Origin: Sinorhizobium glycinis
GTDB lineage: Bacteria; Pseudomonadota; Alphaproteobacteria; Rhizobiales; Rhizobiaceae
Reading direction: 5' to 3'
Length of the DNA stretch: 64,000 bases
Assembly: GCF_001651865.1 (NCBI RefSeq)
Contig: NZ_LPUX01000050.1
Coordinates: 62,492 to 126,491 of the forward strand
The position numbers and the translations under genes are program-made. Positions 11,226 through 16,079 of the stretch are shown in pieces. A model generated the notes under the pieces. The model was not told the origin of the DNA. It did no database searches and was given only the letters and a program-made list of their open reading frames with translations. Positions within the stretch are counted from its first letter, which is position 1. Each line of letters opens with the position of its first letter.

Positions 11226-11939
11226 CTAATGATAACGCCGGATCAGGCCGACGAGCTTGCCCTGAATCTTCACCCGGTCGGGTCCGAATATCCGCGTTTC
11301 GTAAGCCGGATTCGCGGCCTCCAGCGCGATCGATGCACCCTTGCGACGGAAGCGTTTCAACGTAGCCTCCTCATCGTCGATTAGGGCCACGACTATGTCT
11401 CCCGGACTGGCGGTGCTCGCATTTCGGATGATCACCGTATCGCCATCGAGAATGCCCGCCTCGATCATCGAATCGCCCTTGATTTCGAGCGCATAGTGCT
11501 CGCCGCTGCCGATCATCTCCACCGGCACGGAGATTTCGTGCGTATTGTTCTGGATGGCCGAGATCGGCACGCCCGCGGCGATCCGCCCCATGACCGGCAC
11601 CGTCATGGATGTGTTCTCGACCGGTGGCGTCGCCGCTGGCTTCGGCGCAGCCGGGGGCTTGCCCAGGCTGCCCTCGATGACACTCGGCGAGAAGCCGCGT
11701 CGCGGCTGGGAAACGCCCGAATAGGCTTCCGGCAGCTTGATGACTTCAAGCGCACGGGCCCGATTGGGAAGCCGGCGAATGAAGCCACGCTCCTCGAGCG
11801 CCGTGATCAACCGGTGGATGCCGGACTTCGACGCGAGATCGAGCGCATCTTTCATCTCGTCGAAGGACGGCGGGACCCCGGATTCCTTCATCCGTTCATG
11901 GATGAACAGAAGCAATTCCTGTTGCTTGCGGGTCAGCAT
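11226..11939 (-). CDS. lexA: SOS repressor LexA
   Basis: Transcriptional repressor of DNA-damage genes that self-cleaves when RecA is activated. The 237-residue length is usual for rhizobial LexA. The winged-helix DNA-binding domain is residues 1-65 ([15 protein letters not shown] recognition region). A longer Pro-rich linker is followed by the cleavage site A122-G123 and the catalytic dyad S157 (GDSM) and K195. The ORF is open well upstream, but ATG 11939 begins with the conserved [17 protein letters not shown]. An SOS box 48 bases before the start shows autoregulation. Confidence 0.96.
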
Positions 11940-11986
11940 GCGCGTCACTCCAGAATCGCGAAACAAATCAAGAACAGAAACTATCC

Positions 11987-12001
11987 GTTCCATATGTGTT
12001 C
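11987..12001. promoter_or_regulatory. SOS box (LexA operator) of lexA
   Basis: GTTC-N7-GTTC, the alphaproteobacterial LexA-binding direct repeat, read on the plus strand as GTTCCATATGTGTTC. It lies 48 bases upstream of the lexA start, where it can block the lexA promoter. A second copy of the motif lies between ssb and uvrA in this window. Confidence 0.88.
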
Positions 12002-12184
12002 CGCAAGCATTTAATATTCGGTGAATTCCGGTCGCGCGCCGAAGTCCGCCTCGGCTGCAGTGGGACGCAACTGAATAGATTCGCCGTAAAGGGAGCGTGC
12101 GCTGTGCCGTCCGCGCAGCGTCGCACATCCGGCGAACGTCCTGCTCGCCCCGGCGGAGTTTGCTTGCTGGCCTGACGAGCGCTC

Positions 12185-12768: not shown

Positions 12769-13065
12769 GGGCAGCGCGTTATTGCCCGAAGCATGGGGCC
12801 TTTGCAAGATTTAGCATGCGCGGCGCCATGATTTTGTTGGAGTGAGCGGGCGAGGGCATTCCCGCGCCCCGGCTTTGTCGCTTCCGAAATTTACCATTCA
12901 TAAACCATGACGCGAGATTTCCGTCGCTCCTTCGCCATCTGGTTCGCAATTTCGCCTTGTTGTTGTCATGATCTCTCGATTGTTCCGTTTCGGAACGGCG
13001 AAATGTCCGCGGGGGCTAGAGCGGATAGTTTCGAGTGCGGCATTGCGAATGATCTAGTGGGACAG

Positions 13066-14100
13066 ATGACATCCGATAGAAAAGCGGCATTCCTTGCGAG
13101 CGGAATTAGGCTCGCTGCAGTTCCGTTGCTGTGCGCGGCGCTTGCCGCCTGCGGATCGACGACAGCCAGTGTCAAGAAGAGCAAGTCGCGAAGCAAGGAA
13201 TACTTCGCCGAATCCGTCTATGGCGTCAAAGCCAGCCCGCGGGTCGCCACCGGACGCAATATTCCAAAGGGCGGCGGCCGCTATCAGGTGGGCAAGGCCT
13301 ATCAGGTCAAGGGCAAATGGTATCAGCCGAAAGAGGATTTCGGTTACAACAAGACCGGAGTGGCGTCGTGGTATGGGTCGGCCTTTCACGGTCGCCTCAC
13401 GGCAAACGGCGAAGTCTACGACAAGTATCACCTGTCGGCCGCGCACCCGACCTTTCCGCTCCCGAGCTATGCACGCGTCACAAATATCGAGAACGGCACC
13501 TCGGTCATCGTCCGCGTCAACGATCGCGGTCCCTATGAATATGGCCGGATCATCGATGTGTCCTCGAAGACGGCGGACATGCTGGACATCAAGCGCAAGG
13601 GGAGTGCCAAGGTTCGGGTCCAATATGTCGGCCGGGCTCCGCTCGAGGGCAACGACATGCCCTATCTCATGGCGTCCTACATCACCAAAGGCGATCGCAG
13701 CCCGGGCGTGATGCCGGAGGGGCAGATTGCGACGGGCGTCATGGTCGCGTCGAACGAGCCGCTGCGCAATCAGGTGCAGGACCTTGGGACCGTAACGGTG
13801 CCAGCCAAATCGATGCTCGACACGGGCGTCCCGGTAAATGCCCTTGCTGCGCCGGCGCAAGCCTTCCCGACGCCGCGCGCCATGACCGAATTCGTGCTGC
13901 TGCCGGAGATCGGGCCCATTCCGACCGAGCGGCCTGAACTGATTCCGCTGCCGGACGGCAACATGGCCTATGCCGCTGCCTACGTGGAAGTGCGGGTCAG
14001 CGACAGGGCCTCGCCCTTCGAAGCGATCATGGTTGATTCCAATCCGCTCACGCCGGAATCGATCCTTGCCTATGCAAAGCGGCAGCAGGGCGCCATTTGA
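13066..14100 (+). CDS. rlpA: Septal ring lytic transglycosylase RlpA-like lipoprotein
   Basis: Outer-membrane lipoprotein that cleaves stem-peptide-free glycan strands, acting at the septum. ATG 13066 is chosen because it starts a proper lipoprotein signal ending LAAC (C29); longer in-frame starts do not. The double-psi beta-barrel domain covers about residues 98-190 (GVASWYGSAFHGRLTANGEVYD, then RVNDRGPY with the catalytic Asp). The C-terminal third is low-complexity and shows no SPOR domain, so septal targeting by SPOR seems absent. The protein has 344 residues. It heads the plus-strand run rlpA-dac-tmk-holB. Confidence 0.85.
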   Translation: MTSDRKAAFLASGIRLAAVPLLCAALAACGSTTASVKKSKSRSKEYFAESVYGVKASPRVATGRNIPKGGGRYQVGKAYQVKGKWYQPKEDFGYNKTGVASWYGSAFHGRLTANGEVYDKYHLSAAHPTFPLPSYARVTNIENGTSVIVRVNDRGPYEYGRIIDVSSKTADMLDIKRKGSAKVRVQYVGRAPLEGNDMPYLMASYITKGDRSPGVMPEGQIATGVMVASNEPLRNQVQDLGTVTVPAKSMLDTGVPVNALAAPAQAFPTPRAMTEFVLLPEIGPIPTERPELIPLPDGNMAYAAAYVEVRVSDRASPFEAIMVDSNPLTPESILAYAKRQQGAI

Positions 14101-14166: not shown

Positions 14167-15321
14167 ATGCGCATGAAGTGGTTCGCGATCGTGGGCATCC
14201 TGGCGGCGATCGCTCAGGGGCAGGCGGCGGCGCAAACGCCGGCCTTCGATACGAAGGCGAAGCAAATCTATCTCATCGATGCCGAAACCGGGACCGTTCT
14301 CTTTGCGCGCGGCGAAAATGAGCCCGTACCGCCCGCCTCGCTTGCCAAGCTGATGGCGATGGAAGTGGTCTTCGAGGCGCTGGAGAAAGGCGAACTGACC
14401 CCGGAGACCACCTTCGCGGTTTCTGAACATGCCTGGCGAACGGGCGGTGCGCCCTCCGGCACGGCCACGATGTTCGCGGCGATCAAATCCCAGATCCGCG
14501 TTGCAGACCTCATTCAAGGTGCGATCGTCCAGTTGGCGAACGACGCCTGCATCGTTCTCGCCGAAGGCCTGGCTGGCAGCGAGGCGGCCTTCGCCGATCG
14601 CATGACGGCACGGGCCCGCGAGCTTGGCTTGCCCGTTGCAACTTTCAAAAACGCAACGGGCCTTCCGGATCCGGGAAACAGGGTCACGATGCGCGAGCTT
14701 GTCGCGCTATCGCGTCATCTGCGTGAGGCGCATCCAGAATTCTATCGCCTCTACGCGCAGCCGGAGTTCGAGTGGAACAAGATCCTGCAGCGCAACAAGA
14801 ACCCGCTGATTGCCGCCAATGTCGGTGTTGACGGGTTGGCAACCGGGTTTGCGGAGGGCTTCGGCTTCTCGCTTGCCGCCTCCATGCAGCGCGGCGATCG
14901 TCGGGTCTATCTGGCGATGGGAGGCCTCGAAACCGACAAGGAGCGGACCGAGGAAAGCCGTCGCGTGCTCGACTGGGCGATGACGAACTTCGAGAAAAGG
15001 CGCATCTTCGCCGATGGCGAAACGATCGGCGAAGCGAGCGTCTACGGCGGCGCCGCCTCTCGTGTGTCGCTGGTCGCAGGCAGCCCGGTCGACGTGCTGC
15101 TTCCGGTCAACAATCCGGAACGGCTGACGGCGAGGATCGTCTACAAATGGCCGCTGACGGCGCCGGTGGCGGCCGGTCAGCAAGTGGGCGTCGTCAAGCT
15201 CTGGAACGGCGACAAGCTTTTGAGGGAAGTGCCGGTCAAGACGGCCGGGGCGGTCGGCTCCGGTACGCTTACCAGCCGGGCGCTCGATGCCCTGCAGGAA
15301 CTTCTGTTCTTCTGGCTGTGA
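14167..15321 (+). CDS. DacA/PBP5-family protein with altered SxN and KTG motifs
   Basis: Periplasmic penicillin-binding-protein-5 homologue (384 residues, Sec signal with likely cleavage after AAAQ, residue 23). Active family members trim the terminal D-Ala of peptidoglycan. The SxxK motif is present (SLAK, 58-61), but the SxN motif reads LAN (123-125; TTG codon where TCG would give Ser) and KTG reads ATG, i.e. Ala-Thr-Gly (225-227). Both Ser and Lys are normally essential, so carboxypeptidase activity is doubtful. The rest, including the C-terminal beta domain (about 290-384), is intact and the frame is uninterrupted, so it looks like a maintained non-classical or structural protein rather than a pseudogene. 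Confidence 0.88.
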
Positions 15322-15377: not shown

Positions 15378-16079
15378 ATGCACGCCGATCTGGAAGAACT
15401 TGTGTCGCTGGCAAAGGGTTTGTTCGTAACATTCGAGGGTGGAGAAGGGGCGGGAAAGTCGACCCAGATGCGCCTTCTTGCCGATTCGCTCAGCGCCCGA
15501 GGCTATGACGTGCTGACCACCCGTGAGCCGGGAGGTTCCATAGGCGCGGAGGCGGTTCGGCATGTCTTGCTGTCAGGCGCGGCGGAACCCTTCGGCGTCC
15601 GCATGGAGGCGATTCTGTTCGCGGCGGCGCGCAGCGACCATGTCGAGGAAGTGATCCGTCCCGCCTTGCAGCAAGGGCGGATCGTTCTCTGCGATCGCTT
15701 CCTGGATTCCTCCCGCGTCTACCAGGGCGTCACCGGTAATCTTGAGCCGGGATTCGTCGAAACGCTCGAGCGCGTCTCCGTCAACGGCGTCATTCCCGAT
15801 CGAACGATCATCTTCGACCTGCCTGCAGAGGTCGGGCTCGAACGCGCCCGCCGCCGCTCTGCCAATGAGGGACCCGATCGCTTCGAGAAGGAGCAACTGG
15901 AGACGCACGAGAAACGCCGCGAGGCCTTCCTCGATATTGCCGAGGCCGATCCCGAGCGTTGCCGTGTCGTCGACGCCACCCGCCCGCCGGAGGTGATTGC
16001 GGCAGAAGTGCTGAGGCTTGTGGAAGCGCTGCTGCCGGGCGGCGAGCCTCAATCGTCCCGGGTGGAAGCGGCGTCATGA
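15378..16079 (+). CDS. tmk: Thymidylate kinase
   Basis: Phosphorylates dTMP to dTDP for DNA synthesis. It shows the P-loop GGEGAGKST (21-29), the TREPGG motif, the CDRFLDSS dNMP-binding segment and the LID region [17 protein letters not shown] 15378 gives 233 residues; an in-frame GTG at 15402 with GGAAGA before it would begin closer to the family N-terminus and is a real alternative. The stop overlaps the holB start by 4 bases (ATGA), as in many Rhizobiales. Confidence 0.95.

Follow-up and report, generated by a model that had tools for sequence, protein, structure and literature searches.

A PBP5-type DacA homologue with a degenerate active site between rlpA and tmk of Sinorhizobium glycinis, a probable pseudo-carboxypeptidase

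The gene dac of Sinorhizobium glycinis lies between rlpA and tmk and encodes a homologue of the PBP5-type D,D-carboxypeptidase DacA in which two of the three catalytic motifs are altered. Its product (Dac) could be an enzyme of altered chemistry, a gene product in decay, the artefact of a sequencing error, or a protein maintained for something other than catalysis. These possibilities were weighed using the 64,000-nucleotide stretch of DNA that carries the gene (the window), its orthologues, a structural model and the published genetics of related bacteria.

The dac product and its active site

The reading frame of dac has zero internal stop codons and matches its own genome at 100%, and the product belongs to the PBP5-type DacA family on the basis of domains and fold. 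Both Pfam domains score far above their cut-offs (181.7 versus 27.6 bits for Peptidase_S11, 80.6 versus 21.2 bits for PBP5_C). An AlphaFold model built from 65 rows (pLDDT of 92.7) has the PBP5 fold, with both domains matching PBP5/PBP6 structures (4k91 chain B, Z-score of 40.4, 341 aligned residues and r.m.s.d. of 4.0; 5tr7 chain B, Z-score of 39.3, 247 aligned residues and r.m.s.d. of 1.5). Dac is homologous, but not equivalent, to the enterobacterial proteins DacA, DacC and DacD, as it falls below all the curated cut-offs of these NCBIfam equivalogs (best score 223 bits versus 610 for DacD; 194 versus 765 and 161 versus 694 for the others). The nearest named orthologue is that of Sinorhizobium shofinae (95% identity). 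An intact frame with a signal peptide and a C-terminal domain had been described in the initial annotation, and all three are present, the signal peptide as a probable one that includes a helix of low pLDDT in the model (residues 5–15). The C-terminal helix of PBP5 is a membrane anchor, and by analogy that of Dac is a probable anchor too.

Table 1 Features of the dac locus in the window
Feature	Residues	Position	Strand	Basis or remark
RlpA-family protein (DPBB_1), upstream neighbour, start codon not settled		12907..14100	+	Counterpart annotated RlpA in S. meliloti record
dac, PBP5-type DacA homologue with degenerate active site	384 aa	14167..15321	+	ORF and Pfam
Signal peptide, probable	about 1–23	14167..14235	+	By eye
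Peptidase_S11	22–249	14230..14913	+	Pfam, E 2e-53
Motif 1 (SxxK), intact, S-L-A-K	58–61	14338..14349	+	Sequence
Motif 2 (SxN), degenerate, L-A-N	123–125	14533..14541	+	Codons TTG GCG AAC
Motif 3 (KTG), degenerate, A-T-G	225–227	14839..14847	+	Codons GCA ACC GGG
Arg260, zero entropy in Lys-lost and canonical sets	260	14944..14946	+	Alignment
PBP5_C	275–363	14989..15255	+	Pfam, E 9.8e-23
C-terminal helix, probable membrane anchor	368–383	15268..15315	+	Model; anchor by analogy
tmk (dTMP kinase), downstream neighbour, start not settled		15378..16079	+	Counterpart annotated tmk in S. meliloti record

The three motifs read as had been claimed from the sequence: the SxxK motif is intact, whereas the SxN serine is replaced by a TTG-encoded leucine and the KTG lysine by alanine. 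The LAN and ATG of Dac align onto the SxN and KTG of solved PBP5 and PBP6 proteins. Arg260, counted along the alignment, is presumably the counterpart of the PBP5 arginine that we take to be Arg248, which binds the substrate carboxylate. In PBP5, substitution of Lys213 abolishes carboxypeptidase activity, and penicillin binding can remain. Having neither the SxN serine nor the KTG lysine, Dac is not expected to complete a D,D-carboxypeptidase cycle. Ser44, Lys47, Ser110 and Lys213 of E. coli PBP5 are listed as the counterparts of the β-lactamase catalytic residues (table in PMC3394801, in the portion available to us), and the equivalents of Ser110 and Lys213 are those absent in Dac; this table was all that a literature search for PBP5 mutants yielded.

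In the window, rlpA, dac and tmk lie on one strand. The gene order in the S. meliloti record is rlpA, dac, tmk, DNA polymerase III delta', metG and tatD, and the dac counterpart is annotated there as D-alanyl-D-alanine carboxypeptidase. Upstream of the three genes, a LexA-like ORF (11226–12128, minus strand), recognised by eye and by position, occupies the place of lexA in the S. meliloti record. The genes lexA, rlpA, dac, tmk and metG are found on a 3.7-Mb replicon labelled S. meliloti plasmid pSymB (CP090106.1), which appears to be a chromosome with the wrong label. A scan of the window locus for promoters and terminators gave nothing useful.

Distribution and recurrence of the degenerate site

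An orthologue was found in 31 of the 32 other genomes searched from the same genus, the 32nd genome being 70% complete; 29 of these were read, giving 30 rows with that of the window. Every row reads SLAK and ATG, and the SxN serine is missing throughout (LAN in 28, QAN in one and FAN in one). The lysine is also lost in 23/23 named loci (L034–L056; 22 from Sinorhizobium/Ensifer and one 'Rhizobiales bacterium'), several of which come from the same genomes as other rows. Sequencing error at the two codons, or a change limited to this strain with other signs of decay, had been named among what could undo the observation; no support was found for a strain-specific change or for an error in sequencing or assembly, and the genus-wide ATG leaves them a vanishingly small probability.

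In the family, 133 of the 141 genomes of the family sample were read (one locus was unread and seven genomes had paralogue-level matches only): 64 have all motifs intact and 69 lack the KTG lysine. In the rest of the order, 11 of 65 rows, drawn from 40 further family codes and representing part of the orthologue matches there, are without it (Lys-lost). Loss occurs in 9/41 family codes, with both states in four of them. Outside the order, 48 of the 84 genomes searched were read (the top 28 by score, plus 20 spread over the remainder of the list); the KTG lysine is present in all 48 and all three motifs in 47, the remaining one having SxG. Within this sample degeneration is confined to one order, the simplest reading being that the ancestral state is canonical, and, set against these counts, the uniform loss in Sinorhizobium is more than a chance change.

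The whole set, including the named loci, comprises 289 rows, of which 273 are distinct. Among the latter, the KTG lysine is missing from 139, the SxN serine from 118 and the nucleophile serine from 10. These losses are nested: 117/118 rows without the SxN serine are also Lys-lost, the sole exception reading KPG, as are 10/10 rows without the nucleophile, which is replaced by Ala or Thr. All motifs are intact in 131 rows; 110 keep SxxK only (including the KPG row, with its lysine), 19 keep SxxK and SxN, three SxN only, two KTG only, and eight none. The lysine is replaced by A, G, V, E, M, S, T, L, F, N or Q. Lys-lost rows mostly retain the SxxK serine (129/139), the SxxK lysine (138/139) and the SxN asparagine (138/139), and SxN itself is still present in 22 of them.

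Some full-length copies follow other patterns. Two rlpA–tmk copies from one family code (L112 and L124, f33) have SMAT for SxxK and SGG for SxN with an intact KTG, a different route of decay, and another DacA (L286, genome G047) has all three motifs broken (SMAL, IAY and MVG). Pro96 accompanies most lysine losses (134/139 Lys-lost versus 40/134 Lys-bearing rows have it), but was set aside as a marker because only four independent pairs lie on supported branches and the sign test is not significant.

Gene position is retained. Each of the 139 Lys-lost rows adjoins rlpA, tmk or both, and rlpA is on the same strand as dac in 242/242 rows with an rlpA match; Lys-lost Dac is the in-place orthologue of the alphaproteobacterial rlpA–tmk DacA and not a paralogue. 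None of these 242 rows has an RlpA–Dac fusion, which would be a sign of a complex.

Loss of the KTG lysine seems to be recurrent within the order. On dac trees inferred with the motif columns excluded, parsimony requires at least seven changes (with 273 and with 131 rows), or 12 changes when regain is barred (131 rows), and a single Lys-lost clade is rejected (AU test, p = 0.0066, 52 rows); some of the backbone branches on which the count of losses depends are weakly supported. When the tree is built from the neighbouring rlpA and tmk instead, at least 16 changes are required (237 rows), compared with 67–80 in 20 shuffles. Seven nucleophile losses are inferred, all within the Lys-lost part of the tree, which makes up 44% of the branch length. 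Judging by the row patterns, the lysine would be lost first, leaving the other residues free to change; as parsimony on the dac tree also infers eight regains of the SxN serine, the order of loss is not settled by the tree.

Constraint, decay and residual chemistry

The dac gene is under strong purifying selection in two genera. The median dN/dS is 0.073 in Ensifer (109 pairs; tmk 0.081, rlpA 0.145) and 0.068 in the Agrobacterium-type genus (196 pairs; tmk 0.041, rlpA 0.146). Between genera, all three genes (dac, rlpA and tmk) give a dN/dS close to 0.5 in either set, which was read as saturation and left unused. With at least one of the two neighbours retained beside every Lys-lost row, these values agree with the initial description of an otherwise maintained operon gene, and together with the genus-wide loss they exclude a change peculiar to one decaying strain.

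A broader form of decay, in which S11 paralogues have taken over the job and dac function is fading, has more to draw on. The genome has three further S11 proteins (L002–L004) that all keep SxxK, SxN and KTG (two have SPOR domains and none has PBP5_C), seven family genomes have paralogue-level matches only, and within the family alone variability is higher among Lys-lost than among canonical rows (1.58 versus 1.18 bits, from 51 versus 23 effective rows). Against this, conservation averaged across sites is equal for both in the whole set (1.65 versus 1.66 bits), dN/dS is about 0.07 in two genera, synteny is kept, no internal stop occurs among the orthologue matches listed, and transposon sequencing in A. 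tumefaciens, in the available text of PMC9790009, points to a loss-of-function phenotype in what is probably a Lys-lost species. Decay is accordingly quite improbable. Several sites that appeared newly constrained in Lys-lost rows were discarded, the contrast vanishing in the family-only comparison.

Compensation by additional S11 copies was likewise dismissed as a general explanation of the loss. Lys-lost genomes have more S11 matches than canonical ones (4.16 versus 3.81 per genome, p = 0.02), but the contrast nearly disappears (3.89 versus 3.81, computed by hand with no significance test) when 12 genomes with two PBP5-type copies are left out. In 12/12 of these the rlpA–tmk copy is Lys-lost and the second copy, which has neither neighbour, is canonical; the second copies form one clade, and the pattern perhaps reflects one event.

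The main rival is a still active enzyme of altered chemistry, for example an esterase, an amidase or a slow acyl-accepting protein, that would use Ser58 and Lys61 (with Asn125) alone on a substrate not needing the KTG lysine. Its appeal lies in the retention of Ser58 and Lys61 in most Lys-lost rows, including 30/30 same-genus and 31/31 Agrobacterium-type rows, and in the zero entropy of Arg260. The sites kept in Lys-lost rows are Lys61, Asn125, Asp126, Gly227 and Arg260. A new chemistry is harder to reconcile with the altered positions themselves, which have no conserved replacement: in Lys-lost rows, sites 123 and 225 have entropies of 2.91 and 2.60 bits and rank 300th and 270th in conservation among 346 sites (site 226 ranks 197th), the motif sites being invariant in the canonical set by construction. 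Nor would it be expected that Ser58 changes to Ala or Thr in the ten rows and seven inferred events noted above, all in Lys-lost lineages. We regard an altered enzyme as unlikely, though less so than decay.

Two readings had been offered at the outset, a non-enzymatic wall protein and a divergent enzyme with unusual chemistry. Conservation of the loss across the genus, its recurrence in the order, the free replacements and the loss of the nucleophile, in this sample only alongside that of the lysine, favour the first; the second is the weaker, but keeps some probability for Sinorhizobium, in which SLAK is intact.

Proposed role and comparison with known systems

Genetic evidence comes from Agrobacterium. 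A telomere resolvase scores above the family cut-off in 2/141 family genomes, both of one genus, and in 38/39 genomes of that genus, which we take to be Agrobacterium, whose linear chromid needs a resolvase. One genome of this type (G331) has nine telomere-resolvase matches, most of them partial and on two contigs (C6 and C7). The rlpA–tmk Dac of this genus has NAN and GLG with the SxxK serine and lysine kept in 31/31 loci read, from 39 genomes. In the accessible part of PMC9790009, A. tumefaciens Atu1499 is called a DD-carboxypeptidase, and insertions in it and in the RlpA gene Atu1500, adjacent to it judging by tag number, are synthetically detrimental in a yej (peptidoglycan recycling) mutant. 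Given the 31/31 NAN/GLG loci, Atu1499 is likely to be the dead-site protein, an identification that runs through adjacent tags and the resolvase-inferred genus.

Other reports may concern the same gene. A 'DD-carboxypeptidase dac' is synthetically essential in the absence of group 3 L,D-transpeptidases (PMC11527210, the available text of which gives no locus tag), and dac is one of four S. meliloti carboxypeptidases with catalytic domains (PMC7327166, as far as its text was available), which we infer to be the rlpA–tmk gene. Brucella ovis is reported to have an essential putative D-Ala-D-Ala carboxypeptidase (PMC10746171), which may be an orthologue of Dac. No description of a degenerate active site in Dac was found in the open-licence PMC literature searched.

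Dac is probably a non-cutting wall-binding protein. We consider it likely, from sequence comparison and modelling, that it is a recurrently evolved pseudo-carboxypeptidase with fold, anchor and ligand-side arginine kept and a predicted loss of catalysis. The rlpA–tmk DacA of Alphaproteobacteria would have been converted in place, retaining the PBP5 fold, the C-terminal domain and the probable membrane-binding helix and losing the D,D-carboxypeptidase cycle. More speculatively, the old cleft may hold uncleaved stem peptides via Arg260, Asn125 and Asp126, and/or Dac may dock RlpA and other wall machinery, with peptide trimming left to the three complete S11 paralogues. A counterpoint to a binding role is that the SxxK serine and lysine and the SxN asparagine are mostly kept, which a plain binder would not require. 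The fullest version, to which we give somewhat less than an even chance, is that the in-operon DacA in the order of polar-growing rhizobia and related bacteria turned into a non-cutting stem-peptide binder on at least seven occasions, the lysine going first and the SxN serine and sometimes the nucleophile following; that it works with RlpA in wall assembly; and that it is the 'DD-carboxypeptidase' of the A. tumefaciens Tn-seq screens.

If the site is dead, genetic hits in dac report a structural role and not peptide trimming, and stem-peptide trimming in these bacteria is to be reassigned to other S11 proteins. The gene is at present labelled a carboxypeptidase, both in the S. meliloti record and, as its likely counterpart Atu1499, in the text available from PMC9790009. 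Its repeated loss of catalytic residues would be a natural experiment on the non-catalytic roles of PBP5 that single-residue changes can test.

Among the open-licence PMC papers searched, no dead-site PBP5-type carboxypeptidase was found. Compared with PBP5/DacA-type D,D-carboxypeptidases (E. coli PBP5 and PBP6, P. aeruginosa PBP5 4k91), Dac shares both Pfam domains, the predicted fold, SxxK, the SxN asparagine, the KTG Thr-Gly (in the window copy), the counterpart arginine and the C-terminal helix; it differs in lacking the SxN serine and KTG lysine, and the carboxypeptidase cycle is not expected of it. The canonical rlpA–dac–tmk DacA, found in other Alphaproteobacteria as well as in many genomes from the order of Sinorhizobium and taken as its direct orthologue, shares the operon position (both neighbours are present at 41/48 outside-order loci read) and about 31–59% identity, but keeps the SxN and KTG that the window Dac does not. 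Pseudoenzymes are homologues of enzymes that have lost catalysis and are retained to bind or scaffold, and Dac resembles them in its retained fold, its degenerate active site and the purifying selection acting on its gene.
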